Shown here: positions 20,849-44,649 of the stretch, piece after piece
Position numbering within the stretch: position 1 is the first letter of the stretch
How the letters are laid out: every line of letters starts with the position of its first letter
Source of the DNA: an uncultured Pseudomonadota bacterium
GTDB taxonomy: Bacteria; Pseudomonadota; Gammaproteobacteria; Burkholderiales; SG8-39
Assembly: GCA_903921325.1 (NCBI GenBank)
Contig: CAIXPL010000004.1
Location: 62,001-126,000, forward strand
Length of the DNA stretch: 64,000 bases
Direction of reading: 5' to 3'
Made by a program: the position numbers and the translations under genes
Notes under the pieces: model-generated
Told to the model about the DNA's origin: nothing
Databases searched by the model: none
Seen by the model: only the letters and a program-made list of their open reading frames with translations

Positions 20849-21649
20849 CTATTGCCGCCAGTCGATATAGCGGCCTGCGCGCACCATTTCCATACGTCGT
20901 ACGGCGCCCTCGAACACCAGGCGCGGCACCGTGCCCGCAGGATCGAACGCACTTGCATCCTTGCCTGACTGGCGGCGCACCGCCTCGTCAAGCACGGTGT
21001 CCCCGCCAGCCATCGAGGCAGCAGCCAGTTGCACCTCGCAGGCGCGCTGCAGCGTCCAGCAGCGAAAAAAGGCCTGCGGCAGCGTCTGCCCGGTGACCAG
21101 CAATCCGTGGTTGCGCAATATGAGCACATTGCTCTTGCCAAGACTCGACACAAGACGTTCGCGCTCGTCGCTGCGCACGGTGATGCCCTCAAAGTCGTGA
21201 TAGCTCACGTCGCCGTACAAGATCGCCCCATAGAAATCGTCATGGCGTAGCCCGCCGGCCTTGCAGGCCACTGCCATACCGGCTGTGGTGTGGGTATGCA
21301 TGACGCACTGGGCATCCGGGCGAGCGCCATGGATCGCCCCGTGAATGGCAAACGCGGCCGGATTGCCGCGCCAGGGGCTGTCATCGACATTGGCCCCGTG
21401 GATATCGACTTTGATGAGATTCGATGCGCAGACTTCGGCGTAATTAAGGCCAAACGGATTCACCAGATAATGATGTTCAGGGCCGGGTACGCGCAGTGAA
21501 ATATGGTTGAAGATCGCTTCGTGCCAGCCCAGATAATCAAAGACCTGATAACAGGCGGCCAATTCCAGCCGCAGCGCCCATTCCACCGGATCCATCGCGC
21601 GCGGCGGTTCGCTCGCGCGGCCTGGAAAGGCAAGTTCACTTGGAGTCAT
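20849..21649 (-). CDS. Class II aldolase/adducin family protein
   Basis: GWHEAIFNHISLRVPGPEHHYLVNPFGLNYAEVCASNLIKVD; VMHTHTTAGMAVA. Confidence 0.93.
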   Translation of the reverse strand: MTPSELAFPGRASEPPRAMDPVEWALRLELAACYQVFDYLGWHEAIFNHISLRVPGPEHHYLVNPFGLNYAEVCASNLIKVDIHGANVDDSPWRGNPAAFAIHGAIHGARPDAQCVMHTHTTAGMAVACKAGGLRHDDFYGAILYGDVSYHDFEGITVRSDERERLVSSLGKSNVLILRNHGLLVTGQTLPQAFFRCWTLQRACEVQLAAASMAGGDTVLDEAVRRQSGKDASAFDPAGTVPRLVFEGAVRRMEMVRAGRYIDWRQ

Positions 21650-21661
21650 CGGGGTATTCCT

Positions 21662-23299
21662 TCAATGATGGGTGGAGGGGCGCTCGCCAGGGTCGGCCAC
21701 CGCGACTGCGGCAAGCACACGCTGCAATTCGGTCTTCTGTACCTTGCCCATTGCATTTTTTGGCAGGCTATCCAGAAAGAACACCCGTCGCGGGTGCTTG
21801 AACCGGGCAATGCGCTCGTGAAACCGCGCCATCACCCCTGCCGCATCGAGCGTCGATCCGGACTGGCGTACGACCGCGGCGACCGCGACTTCTCCCCAGC
21901 GATCATCAGGCTGGCCCACGACCGCCGCCTCGATGATCTCCGGACAATCACTCAGAACATTTTCCAGTTCGGCCGGATAGATGTTCTCGCCGCCGCTGAT
22001 GATCATGTCCTTGGAGCGTCCGACAACATAGTAAAAACCCCGTTCGTCGACACGCGCCAGATCGCCGCTGTGAAACCAGCCGTCACGAAAGGATGGATTG
22101 TCGGAATCGGCCCAATACCCTTTCATCAGTGCGGGGCCACGCAGCCAGATCTCGCCGATTTCACCGGGCGCAACGTCGGCACCCTGGTCATCGACCAGCC
22201 GGACATCAACGTGAAGCCCGACCCGGCCGGTACTGCCCAGGGCGAGCAGGGCATCTTCACGTTTGAGATAGATCGAGACCGGACCGGTTTCGGTCGACCC
22301 GTACACCTGCGTCACCGGTACCCCGCGATCAAGAAAGGGGCGCATCAGGGCTTCGGGCACCGTTGAGGAGCCCGTATTGAGCATGCGCAGCGAGCTCAGG
22401 TCAGTCGAGAGCCAGTCCGGGTGACCAATCACCGCCTTCAGTGTGGCGGGCACCAGCAATGACAGAGTGGGGCGCACTTGCGCAACATCGTGCAGCCACG
22501 CCGCCGGATCAAAGCGCGCATGAACGCTCACCGTCGCCCCGGCGTGCAGGGCCGGCAGCGTCTGTATGCACAGGCCACCAACATGAAACATCGGCAGACT
22601 CGATAGCACATGATCGGCGCGGGTCAGATCGTGATAATCGATTGAATTGATCGCATTCCAGATCAACGCCTGCTGCGTATGCACCGCCCCCTTGGGGCGT
22701 CCGGTGGTGCCTGAGGTATAGACGATCAGCACCGGATCGTGATCGTCACCCGAAAACGGCAGCGCGGCGCGACGCAGAGCCTGCTCGGCGAGTGTCTCAG
22801 GGGCGGTGATGTCCTCCCAGCGCAGGACAGCCGCAGGGGCCGAGGGGTCTGCCGCATCCACGTTAGCGGCTGCATGCGCCGGCGTGTCCTCGGCGCCGGG
22901 TTGCGCGCCAACATCCATCAACACCGGCAGACAGGCTGTCGAGTGCGCCGTCAGTGCCATCGCCGTCTCATGAAACCCCGCCCCAGCGACCAGAATGCGC
23001 GATTGGGCGTGATCCAGAATCGACTGCAATTCCGGTCGCGCCAGACGGAAATTAAGGGGTATCAGTACAGCGCCGATCCGTGCCAGCGCAAACAGTAGAC
23101 ACAGCATCTCCGGATGGTTGTACCCAAGGTAGGCGACATGGTCGCCTCGCGACACACCAAGGCGATGCGCGAGCGCGCTGCTCACCAACTCGATGCGTTG
23201 CCACAACGCGCGATAGCTGATGCTGTTGCCCTCAAAGCGCAGTGCCGCCTGCTCGGGCTGAAACTGCGCGTGCCGCTCGATGATGCGCGACAGATTCAT
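21662..23299 (-). CDS. AMP-dependent acyl-CoA synthetase/ligase
   Basis: LIVYTSGTTGRPKGAVHTQ; GSTETGPVSIYLKRED; GENIYPAELENVL; KNAMGKVQKTEL. Confidence 0.95.
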   Translation of the reverse strand: MNLSRIIERHAQFQPEQAALRFEGNSISYRALWQRIELVSSALAHRLGVSRGDHVAYLGYNHPEMLCLLFALARIGAVLIPLNFRLARPELQSILDHAQSRILVAGAGFHETAMALTAHSTACLPVLMDVGAQPGAEDTPAHAAANVDAADPSAPAAVLRWEDITAPETLAEQALRRAALPFSGDDHDPVLIVYTSGTTGRPKGAVHTQQALIWNAINSIDYHDLTRADHVLSSLPMFHVGGLCIQTLPALHAGATVSVHARFDPAAWLHDVAQVRPTLSLLVPATLKAVIGHPDWLSTDLSSLRMLNTGSSTVPEALMRPFLDRGVPVTQVYGSTETGPVSIYLKREDALLALGSTGRVGLHVDVRLVDDQGADVAPGEIGEIWLRGPALMKGYWADSDNPSFRDGWFHSGDLARVDERGFYYVVGRSKDMIISGGENIYPAELENVLSDCPEIIEAAVVGQPDDRWGEVAVAAVVRQSGSTLDAAGVMARFHERIARFKHPRRVFFLDSLPKNAMGKVQKTELQRVLAAVAVADPGERPSTHH

Positions 23300-23448: not shown

Positions 23449-25668
23449 TTACTCATCGGTCTCACCCGACTCATAGAGTGCTTCGCGTCCGAGTCGATCG
23501 AGACACAGTTCGGCTGTCCAGGGCAGCATGAGTGACCCGCAACGGCTGTCCCGATACAGCCGCTCGAGGGGCAAGGTCTTGAGCATGGATTGTCCGCCGC
23601 AGGTGCGGATTGCCAGACGGCAGATCTCGTTCGCGTTTTCCATCACCGTGTATTGCGTCGAATACAGTCGCAGACGGGCATCCTTGGGTGGATCGATACG
23701 CGCTTCATGGATCGTATGCAGAAACAAGGCGCGGGTCTGCTCAAGTTTTACCCGCATCTCCGCCACTGCAATCTGCTTGGTCGGATACATGCGCCGTTTG
23801 ACTGGCGGCATGCCCGCTACTTCGCCGCGCAGATACGCCACTGTGAAATCGTAGGCGGCCTGGGCAATGCCCATATACGTAGGCGACAAGGTCATGAACA
23901 TGTGAGGCCAGCGCGACGCGGCCTGAAAATACACGCCCGTGGGCATCAGTTGCTCAGTGTCGGCAACATAGACATTCTTGAATTCCAGATTGCGCGACAC
24001 CGTGCCGCGCATACCGAGAGGATCCCAATCGCCTGAAATGGTGACACCGCTTGCATCGGCTGGCACCGCGATGTACATGGTGTCGCGCATCGATGCGCCA
24101 GGCTTGTCTTCAGTACACAGCACACCGTAATAGTGGGCAGCACCAGAGAGTGAGGCGAAGATCTTGCGTCCGCTGATCAGCCAGCCACCCTCGGCGCGAG
24201 TGGCGAGTGTGCCAAAGGGCGCCTTACCCGCCGCCGCTGCGCTGCCCTCGGAGAACGGTTGCGCATAGATCGCGCCCTTGTCCACGACGCGCTCGTAGTG
24301 CAGCGCGCGACCATGGTTATGCTGGGCGCGCTGCGCCGCGGTCATCTCCAGATCATCGGCCAGTGGCCCGGACCACAACTGCGAGCAGGCGTGCATGTTG
24401 AAGGTGAGCGCGGTGGCACCGCAGTGCCGCCCGATGGTGGCCGCGACCATGCAATAGGTAGCGAAATCGGCGCCGTGACCGCCGTGCTCACGCGGCACAC
24501 ACAAGCGCAGCAGCCCGGAATCACGCAGATCGTCATAGTTCTCAAACGGGAAGGTCGCATCGCGGTCGTATTGCGCCGCGCGCCCGGCAAAACGGGTACG
24601 ACCCAACTCGTCGGCCAGCGCTATCAGCTGCGCCTGATCGGCACTCAGGGGATAACCCTCGCCGGTGATCGGTGGCGGGCTGTAGCGGCGCACCGGGCGG
24701 GTCGGTTTGGTTGCCGACGTTGCCGGTGCGGATGCTGACGAGCCCGCTGCCGCCGCACCGGGTGCCCCCGGCTTGCCTTCAGTCAACCCGCCGGATTGCG
24801 CAGCCTTTTGCACGGGCAGCGCCGGAAAATGCTGGCGCAGAAACGTGAGCACGCGCTCATCGAACCGCGCGGGTTGTTCCATGTGCGTGAGGTGCCCGGC
24901 ACCGGGCACACACAGGTATTGCGCACCGTTGACCTTATCGGCCATGCGGCTCATCACCGCCGGTGGTGCATTGCCATCGCGCTCACCGACGATGAGCAAG
25001 GTCGGCACGGCAATGCGGGCGAGCGCCGCGCGCTCATCGAAGCCCACCAGAGCCGCGAGCGAGCGGCGATACACATCAGGACTCACCCGCCCCATGGAAG
25101 CCTCGGCCAGGGCCACCCCGGCCGGGTCAGCATCCTCACCCAACATGGCGGCCACCAGACTGGCTGCCAACTCAGGCATGGTTTTACCGGCATCCAGCGG
25201 TGCCAGGCGCGCGGCCAGAAACTCGCGTTGCCAGTCACCCTCGGGTTTGCCAAAGGCGGGGCTCGTACCGTAGAGGACCAGCCCCTGCACGAGTCCGGGA
25301 TGAGCCGCCGCGAGCGACTGCGCCACCATACCGCCCATGCTGTGGCCGACCACTACGGTTTTTGGCGCACCCAGATGTTGAATCAATACGGCAGCCGATT
25401 CAGCCAGTGTCCGGATCGTATAGGGATCGATCGAAGCGCTCGCCCCGTATCCGGGCATGTCCCAGGCCACCACCCGGTAGCCGGCCGCGGCCAGTGACTT
25501 CATCTGCCAGGGCCAGACCGTGCGGTCACCACCGATACCGTGCAGGAGCAGGACTAGCGTATCGCCCGTGCCCTTTTCGGCATACGCTGGCAGTGCGCCG
25601 GGGGCCCCGCGTGCGGCACTGTGTGAGTCAGCGTTCGGGGGTGTGCCTGAATTTTGCGCATTGGTCAT
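23449..25668 (-). CDS. Two-domain fusion: N-terminal alpha/beta hydrolase + Ala/Pro/Ser/Thr linker + C-terminal acyl-CoA dehydrogenase
   Basis: VLLLHGIGGDRTVWPWQ, GHSMGGMVAQSLA, GERDGNAPP, GAGHLTHMEQ; then LCVPREHGGHGADFATYCMVAATIGRHCGATALTFNMHA ... YRDSRCGSLMLPWTAELCLDRLG; one continuous 739-aa frame. Confidence 0.92.
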   Translation of the reverse strand: MTNAQNSGTPPNADSHSAARGAPGALPAYAEKGTGDTLVLLLHGIGGDRTVWPWQMKSLAAAGYRVVAWDMPGYGASASIDPYTIRTLAESAAVLIQHLGAPKTVVVGHSMGGMVAQSLAAAHPGLVQGLVLYGTSPAFGKPEGDWQREFLAARLAPLDAGKTMPELAASLVAAMLGEDADPAGVALAEASMGRVSPDVYRRSLAALVGFDERAALARIAVPTLLIVGERDGNAPPAVMSRMADKVNGAQYLCVPGAGHLTHMEQPARFDERVLTFLRQHFPALPVQKAAQSGGLTEGKPGAPGAAAAGSSASAPATSATKPTRPVRRYSPPPITGEGYPLSADQAQLIALADELGRTRFAGRAAQYDRDATFPFENYDDLRDSGLLRLCVPREHGGHGADFATYCMVAATIGRHCGATALTFNMHACSQLWSGPLADDLEMTAAQRAQHNHGRALHYERVVDKGAIYAQPFSEGSAAAAGKAPFGTLATRAEGGWLISGRKIFASLSGAAHYYGVLCTEDKPGASMRDTMYIAVPADASGVTISGDWDPLGMRGTVSRNLEFKNVYVADTEQLMPTGVYFQAASRWPHMFMTLSPTYMGIAQAAYDFTVAYLRGEVAGMPPVKRRMYPTKQIAVAEMRVKLEQTRALFLHTIHEARIDPPKDARLRLYSTQYTVMENANEICRLAIRTCGGQSMLKTLPLERLYRDSRCGSLMLPWTAELCLDRLGREALYESGETDE

Positions 25669-25681
25669 GATCGATCACTCA

Positions 25682-26743
25682 TCAAGCGGGCTGCGGTGGC
25701 CTGACAGCGTCCACCAGTACCCCATTGTCCACTACGGCGACACCATCGAGGCTCACCGTGCAATGGCGCATCGGCAAGTCAAAATGCCCCAGGGTGTGTC
25801 GCCCCGCTACTTCGTTCGCACCCGTCGAATACAGAAAATTGCCGGCGAAGGCGCGCAACTCGGTGCCATTGAAATCACGCCGGTCATAGAAATTCATCGC
25901 ATCCCAGCGGGCGGCCGGATTCATGCCCCAGCCCACATGCGACACCGCATAGGCTGATCGATCGCCCCAGGCCGCGAAATAGCCGCGCATCAATTCGGCA
26001 TCAATGCCTTCGCCCGCGATGTCCACGACATGGTCATCGACGATGGTGAGTCGGACGGGGTCCTGGATATAGCGCTTGAAGGTGAGATTCACATCACCGG
26101 TATCGAGCACCAGAGTGCCGGCGACCGCACCCGCAGCTGGAAACGCGAGGCACAAACCACCTGGCCAATGCGCCACTGTGCCCGGGCGGGCGGTGTAGCC
26201 CCAAACGCCCCCTACCTGCGCGCCGGCAAGGCTGATCTGCAAGTCCGTCCCGGCGCGCGAACTCACGTGCATGCGGCTCGCCCCCCGCAACTGGCGCATG
26301 GCGGCACGCACGTTGGGCTCCAGCGCCGGATCTGGCATCAACCGTTCGAGTGCTTCAGGATGTTCATTGGAGATCATCAACAGGCGCGCGCCGCCCTTGA
26401 GGATGGCGGGCAGCTCGGGCGCGTGCAGCAAACCCTCAACGGTGAGATCGACCACCAGCACCGATTGCGACAACGCCGAGATCACTGGCACAAGTCCACC
26501 CAAGGCATCGCTTGCGCCGGTCGATCGGACCGGGGCTGGCGCGCTCAGGCGTGGCGAGGGCACAGTGATGAGAAACGGCCGGCAACCCAGGCGAAGCAGG
26601 GCCAGCTCAGCCAACTCCAGATTGATCTGACGCGACTGTGTCTCGGCGAGAATGGCCACGACATCGCCAGCAACTACGCCACAACGGCCAAACACCTCGG
26701 CAAAGCAGTCTATCCATTTGCCCTCGATCCGTTCGCGCAACAT
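25682..26743 (-). CDS. NicX-like (2,5-dihydroxypyridine 5,6-dioxygenase/leucyl aminopeptidase fold) protein, paralogue 1
   Basis: AVSHVGWGMNPAARWDAMNFYD; GHFDLPMRHCTVSLDGVAVVDNG; motifs match NicX iron-ligand regions as recalled. Confidence 0.75.
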   Translation of the reverse strand: MLRERIEGKWIDCFAEVFGRCGVVAGDVVAILAETQSRQINLELAELALLRLGCRPFLITVPSPRLSAPAPVRSTGASDALGGLVPVISALSQSVLVVDLTVEGLLHAPELPAILKGGARLLMISNEHPEALERLMPDPALEPNVRAAMRQLRGASRMHVSSRAGTDLQISLAGAQVGGVWGYTARPGTVAHWPGGLCLAFPAAGAVAGTLVLDTGDVNLTFKRYIQDPVRLTIVDDHVVDIAGEGIDAELMRGYFAAWGDRSAYAVSHVGWGMNPAARWDAMNFYDRRDFNGTELRAFAGNFLYSTGANEVAGRHTLGHFDLPMRHCTVSLDGVAVVDNGVLVDAVRPPQPA

Positions 26744-26950: not shown

Positions 26951-27835
26951 CTACTTTCTAACCCCCGGTGTCTCAATCGCGAGCCCCTGTGCACGCCAGG
27001 CCAGAAACAGTTCCAGATCAAGATATTCCGCGGCGCCGTAGGGCCACATTTCGGCACGCACACCCGACAGGCAACTGCGAAACCGTCGATGCAACGACCC
27101 GGCCTTTTGCCATTCAATGCGATAAATCGGATAGGCATTCGGTTGGCCCTGACTGATGGTCTCGGCCAGCAGCCGGCGCCCCCAGTTTTGCTCATGGCAG
27201 TTGTTGCACGCGAGATTCATCTGGCCCATGCGGCGGTAGTACAGCGCTTGCCCAGCTTCGAAATGCGCGCGTGCCGGCCCTTCGATCGACACCCCGATCG
27301 GCATGCCGCGCGACATCGAACCGACATAGGCCGCGATCGCGATTGCATCATCCGATTCCGCTGTGAACGCGGGTGCCCTCTGGTGCGTCACCCGGCAGGC
27401 GTCGATGCGCCCCGACAGATTGAGGAGCCGGGCAAGGGTCGTGTCAAATTGTGGGTAGTGCGCCGCCACCCCTGCCATGCTGCGCGTTGCCTCACCGTGA
27501 CACTGGGCGCACGCGATGTTCGCGCTGCCGGCCGGCGATGACCACAGCTGCGCACCACGGTCGAGCCACAGTTGCGCCGGGTTGGCGAAATCATCGGCTT
27601 GCATTGCCTTGATGGCAGGTGCCTGAAAGCTCAGCCCCGAGCGCAATGCATCCAGTCCGATCACCCGTTGCTGAGCAAGGGCGGGCGCAACCGATAGCAG
27701 CAGACCGGTAGTGATCAGCAGGGCGAGGCGCGTCATGACTGACCCGATCCCAGCGGCCGTCCGACGCGCGACTCGGGTAGACGCTGCCCGCACCTCATCG
27801 GGCGCACGCCGCGCTGCAACAAGTCTGTGGCTCAT
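26951..27835 (-). CDS. soxA: Sulfur oxidation diheme c-type cytochrome SoxA
   Basis: Two CXXCH sites (CAQCH, CNNCH); YRIEWQKAGSLHRRFRSCLSGVRAEMWPYGAAEYLDLELFLAWRAQGL, typical SoxA C-terminus with catalytic Cys. Confidence 0.92.
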   Translation of the reverse strand: MSHRLVAARRAPDEVRAASTRVARRTAAGIGSVMTRLALLITTGLLLSVAPALAQQRVIGLDALRSGLSFQAPAIKAMQADDFANPAQLWLDRGAQLWSSPAGSANIACAQCHGEATRSMAGVAAHYPQFDTTLARLLNLSGRIDACRVTHQRAPAFTAESDDAIAIAAYVGSMSRGMPIGVSIEGPARAHFEAGQALYYRRMGQMNLACNNCHEQNWGRRLLAETISQGQPNAYPIYRIEWQKAGSLHRRFRSCLSGVRAEMWPYGAAEYLDLELFLAWRAQGLAIETPGVRK

Positions 27836-28329
27836 CGCAGTGTCTCCAGATACCGCACCACATCTTCGATCCCTTGTGCATCGAGTACCGGATGTCCCGC
27901 AAAAGCCGCAGCCACGCGCACCCTGCCCTCAACCCGATAATAGGCGGGCATGATGGATTGCGGGTTGATACGGCTTGAGTCGACCACGCGCAGGCGCAGT
28001 TGCCCTGCGTTCAGCCGAGCGCCGACCTGATCCAGTGGGGGCCCGAGATCACCCATGGCCTGCGAATCGCCGCCTGGCACCTGGTGACAGAGCACGCAGT
28101 TGGCGGTCCGTGAGAACACGAGTGCGCGTCCGCGCGCCGCTTCACCAGACAATCCGCCCAGGGCCTCATTGATGGCGCCGGCTTCGACCCTGAAAGGCAA
28201 CAGATCGTCATCGGCCCGGCTAGCCGAGGCGGCGAACACCAAGACCAAGGCCAACGCCAATGAACACGCACGGGCGGACGAACACAAGGCGCTGCGCGCG
28301 ACGCGTGCGAACCGGGACAACATGCACAT
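27832..28329 (-). CDS. soxX: Sulfur oxidation c-type cytochrome SoxX
   Basis: NCVLCHQVPGGDSQAMGDLGPPLDQVGARL...INPQSIMPAYYRVEG...LDAQGIEDVVRYLETL; start refined. Confidence 0.92.
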   Translation of the reverse strand: MCMLSRFARVARSALCSSARACSLALALVLVFAASASRADDDLLPFRVEAGAINEALGGLSGEAARGRALVFSRTANCVLCHQVPGGDSQAMGDLGPPLDQVGARLNAGQLRLRVVDSSRINPQSIMPAYYRVEGRVRVAAAFAGHPVLDAQGIEDVVRYLETLR

Positions 28330-28355
28330 CCGCAGCGGCGGCGTCGGTTCGACGC

Positions 28356-29423
28356 CTATTCGACGTGCGCGCCCGAGGCCTTGATTGCACGTCCCCACTG
28401 ATCCATCTCCTTGGCAATGAAAGCGGCGAATTCCGCCGGGCTATTTCCCCTGGGCTCAAGCCCCTGCGCGGCCAGTGTCGTCTTTGCCTCGGGCGTGGCG
28501 AGCGAGCGCCGGATCGCGGCATTGAGCTTGTTGATCACCTCGGCCGGCGTGCCCGCCGGGGCCACGACACCGCTCCAGAATGAAATCTCGAATTGCGGCA
28601 AGCCGGCCTCAATCACGGTGGGCACCTCGGGATAGGCCGGGTTGCGCTCGCGCGATGTCACCACCAACGCCCGTAACTTTCCCGCGCGAATGTGCGGCCC
28701 AAGGTTGGCAAAACTCTCAAACACCATCTGCACCTGGCCTGCGAGCAGGTCAGCCACAGCCGGGCCGCCGCCCTTGTAGGGCACATGAACGATGTCGGTG
28801 TTGGTGATCATCTTGAACAATTCACCGGCCAGGTGCAGGGGGGTGCCACTGCCGGCCGACGCAAAATTGAGCTTGCCCGGATGCGCGCGGGCGAGGTCGA
28901 TCAGTTCACGCACACTGGTTGCCGGCACCGAGGGGTGGACCGCGAGCACCAGCGGACCGATCGATACCATGCTCACCGGCGCAAACGATGACCGCGGATC
29001 ATAGCCAAGCTTCGGGTACATCCCGGGTGCTATCCCCAGGGTGCTGGTGCTGCCATAGAGCAAAGTGTAGCCATCGGCGGGCGCGTTGGCGGCGGCCTCG
29101 GAACCGACTGTGCCACCCGCGCCGGGATGATTGTCGATCAGCACCTGTTGGCCAAGGGACTCGGCGAGTTTCTGCGCGACCAGCCGACCGACGATATCGG
29201 TTGGGCCACCCGGTGGGAAGGGCACCACCAGGCGCAAGGGATGGGTTGGATACGATTGAGCACAGACACCGGTGGCTACCAGCACCAGGCCGGCAGCACT
29301 GGTTGCGAGCAATTTCCGAACCAAACTTGGACTGAGGAAGCTGCGCGCCCCCCACAGTCTGATGACTTTAGTTTGACAGTTGTTCGACATTAGAGTGAAT
29401 GGGTATAGTGCACTGAATGACAT
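28356..29423 (-). CDS. Bug-family TTT substrate-binding protein
   Basis: YPTHPLRLVVPFPPGGPTDIVGRLVAQKLAESLGQQVLIDNHPGAGGTVGSE. Confidence 0.95.
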   Translation of the reverse strand: MSFSALYPFTLMSNNCQTKVIRLWGARSFLSPSLVRKLLATSAAGLVLVATGVCAQSYPTHPLRLVVPFPPGGPTDIVGRLVAQKLAESLGQQVLIDNHPGAGGTVGSEAAANAPADGYTLLYGSTSTLGIAPGMYPKLGYDPRSSFAPVSMVSIGPLVLAVHPSVPATSVRELIDLARAHPGKLNFASAGSGTPLHLAGELFKMITNTDIVHVPYKGGGPAVADLLAGQVQMVFESFANLGPHIRAGKLRALVVTSRERNPAYPEVPTVIEAGLPQFEISFWSGVVAPAGTPAEVINKLNAAIRRSLATPEAKTTLAAQGLEPRGNSPAEFAAFIAKEMDQWGRAIKASGAHVE

Positions 29424-32549: not shown

Positions 32550-33629
32550 ATGCTGCCCAGTCATTTTCAGTCGACCGAAATCAATCCTGCGCGCCTGGCC
32601 GGGCTGTTCCGCCAGGAGTTCGCGCTCTCGGCAGTCAAAAAGGGCGAGACTATCGCCGTGGTGTCTGATCTGGGCACCCGACGCGAGTATGTCGAGGCCT
32701 CGTTTGCCGCCGCTGATGAGCTCGGCGCTGACATCTACGAGATGTGCGTGAACTCGGTGCCGTCCTGGACCAAGGTCGGTGTGCCCACGATAGGCCAATG
32801 CAAGGGCACTCTGGAAGCCCTGTGCCAGGTTGACCTGATCGTGATTTTTCATGTGCCCCTCTTTGCCAGCTGGCTGCGCACCGTGATGCAAAAAGGCGTT
32901 CGCGTGCTGATGATCATCGACGCACCCGATGATCTCGATCAACTCATGTCCCCACCAGGTCTCAAGGAAGCACTCAAGTACGCCGACTCGGTCTATAGCG
33001 CAGCGCAACGGATACAGGTCACCAGCAAGGCGGGCACTGATTTCACCTACGAGCGCGGTGAATATCCGACCATGATCCAGTGGGGCTACGCCGATGAGCC
33101 CGGTCATTTCGATCACTGGGGCGGCGGGCATATTCACACCTTCCCCAACGAAGGCAGTGCTACCGGGACGGTCGTGTTCCAACCCGGTGACATCGTCATC
33201 CTGCCCTACTGCCGCTATGTGCAGGACCCGGTGCGAGTGACCTTGCGCGAAGGTCATGTGGTGGATATTCAGGGTGGGCTGGACGCCAAGCTGATGGCCG
33301 ACTGGCTGGCCGAAGGCAAAACCTCGGCGACCGATCAGGACCCGTACGCGGTATCCCACCTGGGATGGGGCATGAATCCGCAATCGCGCTGGAACTGGCT
33401 GGGCCTTACCAGCGGCAACCCCGAGCGCAATCGCGCCGCGGCGCGGGTATTTGCCGGCAACTTCCTCTTCAGCACTGGCCCCAACACGCAGGGCGGTGGC
33501 AAGCGCACCACCCGCGGGCATTACGATGTGCCGATGCGGGATTGCACCGTGACCTTGGATGGCAAGGTGGTCATCGAAGAAGGTCAAATCGTTGATGAGC
33601 GCATGCGGGTTGCCCGCGTACCGCGTTAG
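32550..33629 (+). CDS. NicX-like dioxygenase, paralogue 2
   Basis: VTSKAGTDFTYERGEYPTMIQWGYADEPGHFDHW; VSHLGWGMNPQSRWNWLGL; FLFSTGPNTQGGGKRTTRGHYDVPMRDCTVTLDGKVV; matches NicX motif order. Confidence 0.82.
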   Translation: MLPSHFQSTEINPARLAGLFRQEFALSAVKKGETIAVVSDLGTRREYVEASFAAADELGADIYEMCVNSVPSWTKVGVPTIGQCKGTLEALCQVDLIVIFHVPLFASWLRTVMQKGVRVLMIIDAPDDLDQLMSPPGLKEALKYADSVYSAAQRIQVTSKAGTDFTYERGEYPTMIQWGYADEPGHFDHWGGGHIHTFPNEGSATGTVVFQPGDIVILPYCRYVQDPVRVTLREGHVVDIQGGLDAKLMADWLAEGKTSATDQDPYAVSHLGWGMNPQSRWNWLGLTSGNPERNRAAARVFAGNFLFSTGPNTQGGGKRTTRGHYDVPMRDCTVTLDGKVVIEEGQIVDERMRVARVPR

Positions 33630-33652
33630 CAGCGCACGGCATACGCACAACA

Positions 33653-34687
33653 ATGAGTGCAACCTCGAATCGACCCGATGCCCAATTGATCGCGGCACTT
33701 GAAGCGGCCGACTATCACCCGCTGTGGACCCGCTACAAGCAGATCACCCCGATCAAGCCGGCCGCGAAGGACACACCACGGCTGTGGCCCTGGCGTGATT
33801 TCGCACCATTTGCCGAACGGGCGGCCAAGGAAGTGCCGATTGAGGACATCGAGCGGCGCGCGATCATTCTCACCCACCCAGCCTTTGGCGGTGCCACCAC
33901 CACCACGGCCAATCTGATCGCGGCCTTCACGATACTCGAACCGGGCGACCATGCCGTGCCGCATCGTCACACCACGGCGGCCATTCGCTTCGCAACCCAC
34001 GCCGAAGGCGCGGTCACCATCGTCAATGGCCGACGCTGCGAGATGCAGCCGGGCGATCTCGTGCTCACGCCGCCCATGTGCTGGCACGGTCACATCAATG
34101 AGGGAACGCGGCGCACCTACTGGTTCGATGCAGCCAACATCCCACTGATCTGCGGACTCGATGCCAATTTCTTTGAACCCGGCAGCCGCAGTGACGAGCA
34201 GTTCTGGAAGGTTGACGAAGGCGATGAGCGCCTGTACGCCGCAAGCGGCCTGCAAGTGGCAAGCGACGCTGTGCAACCAGCCCCGCTGCAGTCGGGAAAG
34301 TATCACTACCCGGGCGTGGCCACCCGCGCCATGCTCGATGCACTGCCACGCACAGCCGATGGCGAGCGATCGCTGCGCTATACCAACCCGCAGACCGGCG
34401 GCCCGGTGATGGCGACGCTAGACTGTCAGGCAACGCGCCTTGCCCGGGGTGCGGCTACCCGCGCGCGCCGCGCCACTCATAATGCGATTGCGTTGGTCGT
34501 CTCGGGCGAAGGATGTTCAACGGTCGGCGATCAGCGCTTCGAGTGGCAGCAGGATGATGTGTTCACCATCCCGCACTGGACCTGGGCGAGCCATCAGGCG
34601 CGCTCGCCCGAGGCCGACCTGTTCATCGTCTCCGACCGCCCGGTCTTTGAGGCCCTCGATCTGTTGCGCATCGAACGCGAGGCGTAG
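33653..34687 (+). CDS. Gentisate 1,2-dioxygenase-like bicupin
   Basis: LEPGDHAVPHRHTTAAIRFATHAEGAVTIVNGRRCEMQPGDLVLTPPMCWHGHINEG. Confidence 0.9.
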   Translation: MSATSNRPDAQLIAALEAADYHPLWTRYKQITPIKPAAKDTPRLWPWRDFAPFAERAAKEVPIEDIERRAIILTHPAFGGATTTTANLIAAFTILEPGDHAVPHRHTTAAIRFATHAEGAVTIVNGRRCEMQPGDLVLTPPMCWHGHINEGTRRTYWFDAANIPLICGLDANFFEPGSRSDEQFWKVDEGDERLYAASGLQVASDAVQPAPLQSGKYHYPGVATRAMLDALPRTADGERSLRYTNPQTGGPVMATLDCQATRLARGAATRARRATHNAIALVVSGEGCSTVGDQRFEWQQDDVFTIPHWTWASHQARSPEADLFIVSDRPVFEALDLLRIEREA

Positions 34688-34695
34688 CGGGCCTG

Positions 34696-36978
34696 TCAAC
34701 GATTGCGGCGCAATGCCTGCAACTGATCGCGTCCGGCCAGATACTGATTGGGCCAAGCCACGTCAGTGACACCCGCATCAGCCGCGGCATGCAGCGTGAA
34801 ATAGGGGTCAGCCAGATGGGGACGTGCCAGCGCGCACAAGTCGGCGCGGCCTGATGCAATCAGGGTATTGACCTGATCGGCCGTGGTGATGGCCCCGACC
34901 GCCATCGTGGCAATACCGGCCTCGAGGCGGATCTGCTCGGAGAACACGGCCTGGTACATGCGGCCATAGACCGGGCTTGAGGCCGGATCGGTCTGCCCGG
35001 TGGACACATCAACCAGATCGCACCCGTGCGATTTCAGGAGCCGGGCAATCTGCACCGAATCCTCGCCGGTCAATCCACCGGGTATCCAATCGGTTGCCGA
35101 CAATCGCACCGCCATCGGGCGATCAGCGGGCCACAGCGCGCGGCACGCATCGAATACCTCAAGCGGATAGCGCAGGCGGTTCTCCAGCGTCCCACCATAC
35201 TCATCGGTGCGCTGGTTGGTAATCGGCGAGATGAAGCTGCCCAGCAGATAACCGTGTGCCATGTGCACTTCCAGCATGTCAAAGCCGGCCTCGATCGCCA
35301 TCCGCGTCGCACGCTCGTACTGGCCACGCACCTCATCCATATCGCCGCGTGTCATCGCGTGCGGGGTCTGCGAGGTAGCGCTGAAATACGGGATGGGCGA
35401 GGGGGCGAGCAGCGGCCAGTTGCCCGCGGGCAAAGGCTCATCAATGGCCTCCCAAGCCAGTTGGGTTGAGCCTTTGCGTCCGGCGTGTCCCAATTGCAGA
35501 CAGATCTTCGCCGCGCTCTGACCGTGCACAAAATCAACGATCCGCCGCCAGGCGGTCACGTGCGCCGGGTCATACATGCCGGCGCAGCCTGGGGTGATGC
35601 GTGCCTCGGGTGCCACGCAGGTCATCTCGGTGTAGAGCAGTCCGGCACCGCCAATCGCCCGCGAGCCATAGTGGACCAGATGCCAGTCGCCCGGTGTGCC
35701 ATCAACGGCCGAGTACTGGCACATCGGCGACACCACCACCCGATTGGCAAGGTGCATCCGGCGCAAGTGAAACGGCGTGAACAGCGGCGGGCGATTGGTG
35801 AGCGCGGTTGACTCCTCCACCGCGACTTTTTGATTCCACCACTGTTCGACTTCGGCAACCACTTTGGGGTCGCGCAGGCGCAGGTTCTCCCAGGTGATCT
35901 GCTTGGAGCGTGACAGCAAGGAGAAATTGAACTGCACCGGATCCATCTTCCAGAAGCGAGCCACGTTCTCGAACCAGACCAGGCTCGTTTGTGCGGCATG
36001 CTGGATTTTTTCCACTTCCGGTCGCCGTGCCTGTTCATAGGCGGCCAGCGCCGCCGGGATATTGCCGGGCGAAGCGATGACCGATTTGTGCAGCGCGATC
36101 ACATCCTCAAGGGCCAGTTTGGTGCCCGACCCGATTGAATAATGCGCGGTGTGGGCGGCATCACCTACCAGCACCGTGTTCTCATGGCTCCAGTGGTCGC
36201 AATGAATATTCGGAAAATTGCGCCAATACGAGCGGTTGGTCAGCACCGGGTGGCCGTGCAACTCGTCAGAAAATAACTTTTCGCAGTACCGCGCTGTGGC
36301 CTGCTCATCTTCGATGGTCAAGCCCGATTTGCGAAACGCTTCATCGGTGGTCTCAAGGATGACCGTACACTGACCGCGCGTGAACTGGTACGCGTGGATG
36401 GCCCAGATACCACACTCGTTTTCCTTGAAGGCAAAGGTGAACCCCGGCAACGGTGTCTGTGCACCGAGCCAGCAGAACTTGTTCGGACGCAGACTGATGG
36501 TCGGTTTGAAGTGGGCCTTCCACGCCTCACGCACCGGACTGTTCACGCCATCCGAGGCGAGCACCAGATCGGCGTCACGATGGGTCTCGATACCCGCATC
36601 ACGGGTCTGGTAGCGAATCTCGACGCCCAGACTGCTCGCGCGGCGCTGCAAAATCTGCAGCAGGGTAAGGCGCTGCAATCCTGAGAAACCGTGCCCCGAG
36701 GAGCGCAGCACATGGCCCTTGTAGTGCGTATAGATATCGTCCCAGTAGGCGAAGTTGGCCGCCACCTCGGCGTGGGTCTGTTCATCTGCCTCACGCAGAT
36801 TGCCCAGCGTTTCATCGGACAGGACGATGCCAAAGCCGAACGTGTCATCAGGCCGGTTCTGCTCGAACACGGTGATCTGCGCATCCGGCATGGACTTGCG
36901 CATCAGGATCGAAAAGAACAGTCCGGCCGGACCACCGCCGATCACATCAACTTTCATGATTCCCCCTGACCTGACCAC
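34696..36978 (-). CDS. Bifunctional salicylyl-CoA 5-hydroxylase-like FAD monooxygenase fused to OYE-family oxidoreductase
   Basis: N-terminal [21 protein letters not shown]...[25 protein letters not shown]-terminal [43 protein letters not shown]...[14 protein letters not shown]. Confidence 0.9.
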
Positions 36979-43335: not shown

Positions 43336-44649
43336 ATGCCCAGAGACGCAGAGAGTGATATTCGCAGCCTGGTCGAACCGGACCGGGTGCATCGCCGGGC
43401 CTATAGCGATCCGGATATTTTTGAACGCGAAATCGCTCAGATCTTCGAGAAAACCTGGATCTACGCCGGGCACGAGACACAAGTACCCAATCCCGGTGAT
43501 TACTGGCAGTTCCAGATCGGTCGGCAACCACTCGTGATGGTGCGCGGCAACGGCGATGAGATCCATGTGCTGTACAACCGCTGTCCGCATCGCGGGGTGC
43601 AGGTCTGTGGCAGTCGCCATGGCAATGGTGGTGACGCACTCACCTGCCCGTATCACGCCTGGCGTTTTCATTACGACGGTTCGCTTGAATCGGTGCCGCT
43701 TGAGGCGGGCTATCGCGACACGCGGTTTGCCGCAAACAAGGGCGACTTCGGCATGAAGCGGGTCGCACGGGTACAGCGCTATCGTGGCTTTGTATTCGCG
43801 AGTCTGGATCCGCGTGGCCCTGATCTGGTCGAATGGCTGGGCGAGGCCAGGGTCGCCTTCGATGATATTTGCGATCGCTCACCGGTGGGCCGGGTCGAGG
43901 TGGTGCCAAACTGCTTTCGTGTCATTCAGCGGTCGAACTGGAAGTTCTTCATGGAGAACCAGCTCGACGCGGTGCACCCTTCCGTCACCCATATGTCGAC
44001 CGGTTATGCTGCGGCTGAAGTCGAGCGCAAACTGAAACGCGAAACGGGCAGCCAGCCCCTGCACTATCACTACCTGTCGGCCTTCACGACGCCATTTGAG
44101 AAGTGGGACCAGCTTGAGACGGCCGGCTATCCCTATGGCCATACGACCCTCGGTGGCTATATGGGCCTGCGCCCGAGCGATCCTGACACCTTGGCGCACG
44201 AGAAGATCCTCGCCCAAGCCTACGGTGAGCAACGCAAGGAAGAAATCCTTGGGCGCAATATCCACCATGTGCTGATCTACCCATCGATCTCCGTGCAATC
44301 GCCCTTGCAGCAATTGCGCGCGATACGACCGATCAGCCATAACCGCACCTTGTCGGAGATCTGGCATTTCCGCCTGGTCGGGGCACCTGAGGCGATCTAC
44401 CGGCGTTCGCTGTGGTACTACAACCTGGTGAATTCACCGGCCACCATGATCAATGCCGATGACCTGGAGAACTGGCAGCGCGGCCAGTTCGGTCTGTCCT
44501 CCGATGGTGGCGACTGGGTGAGCTTTCATCGTGACTACGGTCGTGACACCGACGCCAATGGCGAGCTGCATTCGACCAATGGTTGCAGCGAGCTACCGAT
44601 GCGCGCGCAGTTTCGCGCCTGGGTCAACTATCTCACTGCCACGGAGTAA
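43336..44649 (+). CDS. Rieske ring-hydroxylating oxygenase alpha subunit
   Basis: CPHRGVQVCGSRHGNGGDALTCPYHAWRF Rieske motif; ENQLDAVHPSVTH iron site. Confidence 0.93.
   Translation: MPRDAESDIRSLVEPDRVHRRAYSDPDIFEREIAQIFEKTWIYAGHETQVPNPGDYWQFQIGRQPLVMVRGNGDEIHVLYNRCPHRGVQVCGSRHGNGGDALTCPYHAWRFHYDGSLESVPLEAGYRDTRFAANKGDFGMKRVARVQRYRGFVFASLDPRGPDLVEWLGEARVAFDDICDRSPVGRVEVVPNCFRVIQRSNWKFFMENQLDAVHPSVTHMSTGYAAAEVERKLKRETGSQPLHYHYLSAFTTPFEKWDQLETAGYPYGHTTLGGYMGLRPSDPDTLAHEKILAQAYGEQRKEEILGRNIHHVLIYPSISVQSPLQQLRAIRPISHNRTLSEIWHFRLVGAPEAIYRRSLWYYNLVNSPATMINADDLENWQRGQFGLSSDGGDWVSFHRDYGRDTDANGELHSTNGCSELPMRAQFRAWVNYLTATE

Follow-up and report, generated by a model that had tools for sequence, protein, structure and literature searches.

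A hydrolase and acyl-CoA dehydrogenase-fold gene fusion in a conserved operon that probably serves the breakdown of an anthranilate-type aromatic acid

The stretch of DNA analysed here (the window, 64,000 nucleotides in all) carries on its minus strand, at 23449-25668, a single uninterrupted ORF of 739 aa according to the ORF list of the window, and stops are abundant on the plus strand across the same interval. The encoded protein consists of an alpha/beta hydrolase domain (residues 26-283; 24820-25593), a linker (residues 284-335; 24664-24819) and an acyl-CoA dehydrogenase (ACAD)-fold flavoenzyme domain (residues 336-739; 23452-24663), all encoded on the minus strand. Pfam search placed Abhydrolase_1 at residues 38-266 (108 bits) and the N-terminal, middle and C-terminal Acyl-CoA_dh domains (PF02771, PF02770, and PF00441) across residues 343-712, each above its gathering score. 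The AlphaFold model, for which 26 family sequences served as input, contained two confident domains (mean pLDDT 85.3, pTM 0.60), and the linker, which is rich in Ala, Pro, Ser, Thr, and Gly, was disordered in it (pLDDT below 50 at residues 287-314 and 316-323). At the sequence level, a chance ORF is ruled out because both halves are homologous to separate genes elsewhere. Both halves share one frame, and the gene fusion is real within this one assembly.

The hydrolase half contains the motifs GHSMGG (Ser110), GERDG (Asp231), and GAGHL (His259), which are near-invariant in an alignment with 95 relatives, and the oxyanion HG motif (His43-Gly44) is near-invariant as well. Its sequence thus holds the nucleophile-elbow serine, the acid, the histidine, and the oxyanion HG expected of an alpha/beta hydrolase. 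The top NCBIfam scores came from PcaD-type enol-lactonase models and were below the cut-off. In addition, we considered the hydrolase as an orthologue of NicD and rejected this assignment (about 30% identity over about 100 residues, and only 27 bits to the hydrolases of nic clusters). The first-pass annotation, made from the letters alone, had described one 739-aa frame with an intact Ser/Asp/His hydrolase and a linker of the above composition, and all three descriptions agree with the present results.

To place the fused gene in its context, the neighbours of 100 related loci were clustered. We found a conserved co-directional core composed of a NicX-like Fe(II) dioxygenase, the hydrolase, the ACAD-fold protein, and an AMP-forming CoA ligase. 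All four genes were present in 79 loci, and in many of the remaining 21 the contig or the fetched stretch was too short to show the whole core. In the window, the first core gene encodes the NicX-like dioxygenase (353 aa; 25682-26743, minus strand; phmmer to NicX 7cn3, 1.6e-55), and the last encodes the acyl/aryl-CoA ligase (545 aa; 21662-23299, minus strand; PF00501, 284 bits), whose nearest solved relative is annotated as a feruloyl-CoA synthetase (361 bits). A class II aldolase-family protein (20849-21649, minus strand; PF00596) is a member of the operon only in the window and in L012 and L052, the two genomes of the same genus. The operon ranges over Alpha- and Betaproteobacteria, including Pandoraea, Polaromonas, Limnohabitans, Roseococcus, and others. 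Among the distant relatives, the plasmids of Ensifer and Aminobacter have the order NicX-like, ACAD, and hydrolase; a flavin reductase is encoded close by, and a glutamine-synthetase-like gene takes the place of the ligase. The distant relatives L092 and L093 have no CoA ligase. L080 and L083 have the trio of hydrolase, ACAD, and ligase; a NicX-like match was not found across about 18 kb, and the trio there may work with another ring-cleaving enzyme. SoxA and SoxX cytochromes, both above the NCBIfam cut-offs, are encoded at 26951-28398 of the window, with the operon on one side and a TctC-type binding protein on the other, and this arrangement recurs in L012 and L052.

The genes around the operon bear on its substrate. 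Genes for tryptophan 2,3-dioxygenase, kynureninase, and arylformamidase were found in 19 Pandoraea loci, at a distance of 4-6 kb upstream and on the other strand, and in the Pandoraea loci among L013-L034 and L065-L074 the operon and a flavin reductase are divergent from these genes. One Pandoraea representative of each of the three enzymes passes its own NCBIfam cut-off, and together they would yield anthranilate; this context belongs to one genus and counts as one event. We also considered that the window genome itself makes anthranilate from tryptophan, and rejected it, as neither tryptophan dioxygenase nor kynureninase was found in that genome.

In addition, the window encodes a 760-aa protein of the bifunctional salicylyl-CoA 5-hydroxylase/oxidoreductase family (AbmA-like; 34696-36978, minus strand; NF006101, 1119.7 bits against a cut-off of 1078). 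Near the operon, relatives of this salicylyl-/2-aminobenzoyl-CoA 5-hydroxylase family occur in the window genus, in L070 and L076, and in Comamonadaceae, at least four lineages in all, and the NF006101-family neighbours elsewhere match the window protein at 43-79% identity. Next to it lies a cupin dioxygenase related to gentisate and 5-aminosalicylate 1,2-dioxygenases (33653-34687, plus strand; 2.9e-54 to PDB 3nst), which scores 226 bits with TIGR02272 and 207 bits with NF049978, below both curated cut-offs; besides the window genus, such a cupin is also found in Aminobacter. A second NicX-like paralogue (32550-33629, plus strand) is 37% identical to the first and has copies of 84-86% identity in L012 and L052. 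These three genes stand side by side at 32550-36978 and are kept in both same-genus genomes. Upstream in Comamonadaceae and Limnohabitans there is a second protein, of the benzoate-CoA-ligase family, together with an ACAD, an enoyl-CoA hydratase, and an L-PSP protein. The carriers near the operon, for carboxylates or polar solutes, belong to the TctC, TRAP, and ABC (family 3 binding protein) types. A Rieske-type ring-hydroxylating oxygenase large subunit at 43336-44649 of the window is related to benzoate/anthranilate dioxygenases and scores far below the cut-off. As associations, the neighbour contexts agree and point to an anthranilate- or salicylate-like acid, and the operon probably serves the breakdown of an anthranilate-type aromatic acid.

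A NicX-type pathway for an N-heterocycle should also be considered. In such a pathway, the ACAD-fold domain as a monooxygenase would make a dihydroxy-pyridine-like ring, the NicX-like enzyme would cleave it, the hydrolase would act afterwards (as a NicD-like or C-C hydrolase), and the ligase would activate the resulting acid, so that the fusion would bracket the dioxygenase step. The NicX-like protein of the window is about 36% identical to the NicX (2,5-dihydroxypyridine dioxygenase) of nic clusters, and known nic clusters also pair an alpha/beta hydrolase with NicX. Furthermore, the Fe(II) ligands H265, S302, H318, and D320 of NicX, all shown by mutagenesis (PMC7910607), correspond to H269, S306, H320, and D322 of the window protein and are near-invariant in 96 relatives. 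However, the hydrolase is no NicD orthologue and scores best with the PcaD-type models. No NicC-type monooxygenase, molybdopterin hydroxylase, maleamate amidase, or Asp/Glu racemase-type isomerase was recognised in the annotated neighbourhoods, and the neighbours favour anthranilate/salicylate-type chemistry. We regard the N-heterocycle pathway as possible but rather unlikely.

The ACAD half raises the question of whether it is a dehydrogenase or a monooxygenase. It had been read at first as a complete-looking acyl-CoA dehydrogenase whose fusion would couple hydrolysis to alpha,beta-dehydrogenation. The fold is indeed complete (all three Pfam domains, and Foldseek TM about 0.8), and His426 is invariant in the alignments; the chemistry apparently is not. 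In a profile alignment to true ACADs extended without a gap, Leu715 stands opposite the catalytic Glu (MCAD Glu376 type), and among 101 aligned sequences Leu715 is near-invariant (more than 97% of relatives). The alternative IVD-type position (Glu254) is occupied by Met590, as counted by hand from the sequence. In a MAFFT alignment with a 5-residue gap, the catalytic Glu pairs instead with an invariant Glu720, five residues beyond the expected position, so the two alignments disagree on where this residue falls. Judged from these alignments, the catalytic base of the ACAD half has likely been lost.

Among solved structures, the ACAD half has its best relatives in 5gj7 and 5z8t (about 120 bits), which are also top in Foldseek, and the title of 5z8t names a flavin-containing monooxygenase; no literature on PDB entries 5Z8T and 5GJ7 was found. 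As far as the models go, structure alone does not separate a monooxygenase from a dehydrogenase, because the TM scores to true ACADs (0.80-0.85) are as high as or higher than those to monooxygenase-type matches (0.77-0.80). A flavin reductase (PF01613) adjoins the operon in 46 of the 100 loci. These loci span several lineages, and the reductase gene can lie on either side and in either orientation. No such reductase was found beside the operon in the window genus; the window genome has four, all on other contigs, of which L108 is the closest to the operonic flavin reductases (about 33% identity). Group D enzymes, which have the ACAD fold, are two-component monooxygenases with a partner flavin reductase. 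Therefore, the recurrent reductase, together with what is known of group D (for example, PMC5481743), points to a two-component monooxygenase. From this context we infer a monooxygenase role, and hydroxylation through a C4a-hydroperoxyflavin is predicted for the ACAD half.

As the remaining alternative, this half would be a true acyl-CoA dehydrogenase, joined to a hydrolase that acts on thioesters or esters. The complete ACAD fold, the adjoining CoA ligase, the best NCBIfam ACAD-type score (the FadE16 'acyl-CoA dehydrogenase' model), and Glu720, which is invariant and close to the active-site region at the C-terminus, would suit it, but the residues at both expected base positions (Leu715 and, by the hand count, Met590) and the association with flavin reductases speak against it, and we think it improbable. 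Thus, the dehydrogenase reading is probably wrong, as far as the sequence comparisons tell, and with it the proposed alpha,beta-dehydrogenation.

As for the origin of the fusion, the halves are separate genes in all of the more than 100 related loci, both same-genus genomes included. These loci came from species genomes, plasmids, and samples at the class, family, order, and phylum levels, searched with full-length queries; two of the sources overlap, and the locus count may include genomes counted twice. The usual order in the split loci is hydrolase and then ACAD, overlapping or a few bases apart. In L012 the two genes are split by one in-frame TGA, and in L052 their frames differ and the domain matches stand about 220 nt apart. 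Aligned with these two genomes at the DNA level, the window has neither the ancestral stop of the hydrolase nor the ancestral ATG of the ACAD gene, and its linker derives from the former intergenic stretch plus the former N-terminal leader of the ACAD gene. Since both the stop and the ATG are gone, a single base change or sequencing error is insufficient to produce the fusion. We also considered that the ACAD half might be translated from an internal start of its own, and rejected this: near the junction there are only TTG295, GTG326, and TTG355, with no convincing ribosome-binding site by eye.

Among 47 aligned split pairs from related loci, the hydrolase and the ACAD are in the same reading frame in 36, usually with one TGA between them, against a chance expectation of one third; as the loci are related to one another, this count is not a formal test. 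Such a same-frame layout with a single TGA makes fusion by loss of the stop easy. For the mixed alignment, the rows of related hydrolases were built with the in-frame stop read as Trp. No further fused copies were found among about 1,300 genomes, GTDB species contigs, and plasmids searched, and apparent long open frames in other genomes were rejected as fused copies because they read through one stop. Thus, within this sample, no genome but this one seems to carry the fusion. It is very unlikely that the fusion reflects an error of sequencing or assembly, or a functionless mutation of short duration: its presence in one genome only, with split nearest relatives and a linker codon score near zero, would fit this, but the loss of both stop and ATG, the open linker in homologous context, and the catalytic or family-invariant residues and in-frame coding signature retained in both domains argue against it.

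Fusion of operon neighbours is a classic clue to two enzymes acting together. The earlier suggestion that both parts serve one pathway is strongly supported here, as in nearly all loci their genes are neighbours within one conserved operon. We give about even chances to the reading that the second and the third operon gene have fused specifically in this genome and act in a route of aryl-CoA hydroxylation, hydrolysis, and NicX-like cleavage. In this route, the ligase would convert an anthranilate- or salicylate-type acid to its aryl-CoA, and the ACAD-fold domain would hydroxylate the aryl-CoA with reduced flavin from a separate reductase. The hydrolase domain would then act on the product, most economically as a thioesterase that frees the hydroxy-acid, otherwise by opening the ring-fission product, and the NicX-like Fe(II) enzyme would cleave the ring. 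With the hydrolase as thioesterase, the fused activities would be consecutive steps. This parallels the logic of the conversion of salicylyl-CoA to gentisate. From context we infer the substrate class, the reaction order, and any benefit of channelling. More specifically, the operon could encode a route, so far unreported, that takes an anthranilate-type acid through CoA thioesters and is made up of the ligase, an ACAD-fold aryl-CoA hydroxylase, a thioesterase, and NicX-family cleavage of, for example, 5-hydroxyanthranilate, with the hydroxylase and thioesterase here forming one bifunctional enzyme; we offer this version tentatively and hold it to be rather unlikely.

If the general model is true, it would add a route of aromatic-acid degradation, an ACAD-fold enzyme that acts on an aryl-CoA, and NicX-family cleavage beyond pyridines. 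If the CoA-thioester reading is true, the operon would offer candidate genes for the route through 5-hydroxyanthranilate, which is known from physiology (Cain 1968, as cited in PMC4539516). The substrate class is specific enough for a direct test in a culturable relative. The operon is more interesting than the fusion itself and deserves attention.

No published function was found for an operon of NicX-like, hydrolase, ACAD, and ligase genes. Neither this operon nor a single chain of hydrolase and ACAD-fold enzyme, an architecture that the first reading did not know as a described enzyme either, is described in the literature found, the accessible part of PMC4539516 included; most subscription journals lay outside this scope, and the absence is weak evidence. 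That review covers anthranilate routes through catechol, gentisate (via 5-hydroxyanthranilate), 3-hydroxyanthranilate, and 2-aminobenzoyl-CoA (PMC4539516).

Among known systems, the 2-aminobenzoyl-CoA monooxygenase/reductase and salicylyl-CoA 5-hydroxylase pathways (Azoarcus evansii; PMC4539516 and PMC3534580) are similar in that an aryl-CoA ligase acts first and a flavin enzyme then hydroxylates the CoA ester. The same hydroxylase family has a member 9 kb from the fusion and others near the operon in other lineages. However, the flavoenzyme of those pathways combines FAD_binding_3 and OYE domains, whereas here it has the ACAD fold, accompanied by a ring-cleaving NicX-like enzyme and an alpha/beta hydrolase. 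The lower nicotinate pathway of NicX and NicD (PMC7910607) likewise has a NicX-like Fe(II) dioxygenase adjoining an alpha/beta hydrolase, but the hydrolase here is not orthologous to NicD, and an ACAD-fold enzyme and a CoA ligase replace NicC and NicF/NicE. Finally, the group D monooxygenases (DszC/TdsC, KijD3, HsaA, and XiaF; 5gj7/5z8t) resemble the ACAD half in fold, recurrent flavin reductase, apparent loss of the Glu, and sequence similarity. None from such an operon was reported in the literature searched. In contrast to these enzymes, to which it is only about 22-27% identical, the ACAD half of the window is fused to a hydrolase and encoded in an operon with a CoA ligase.
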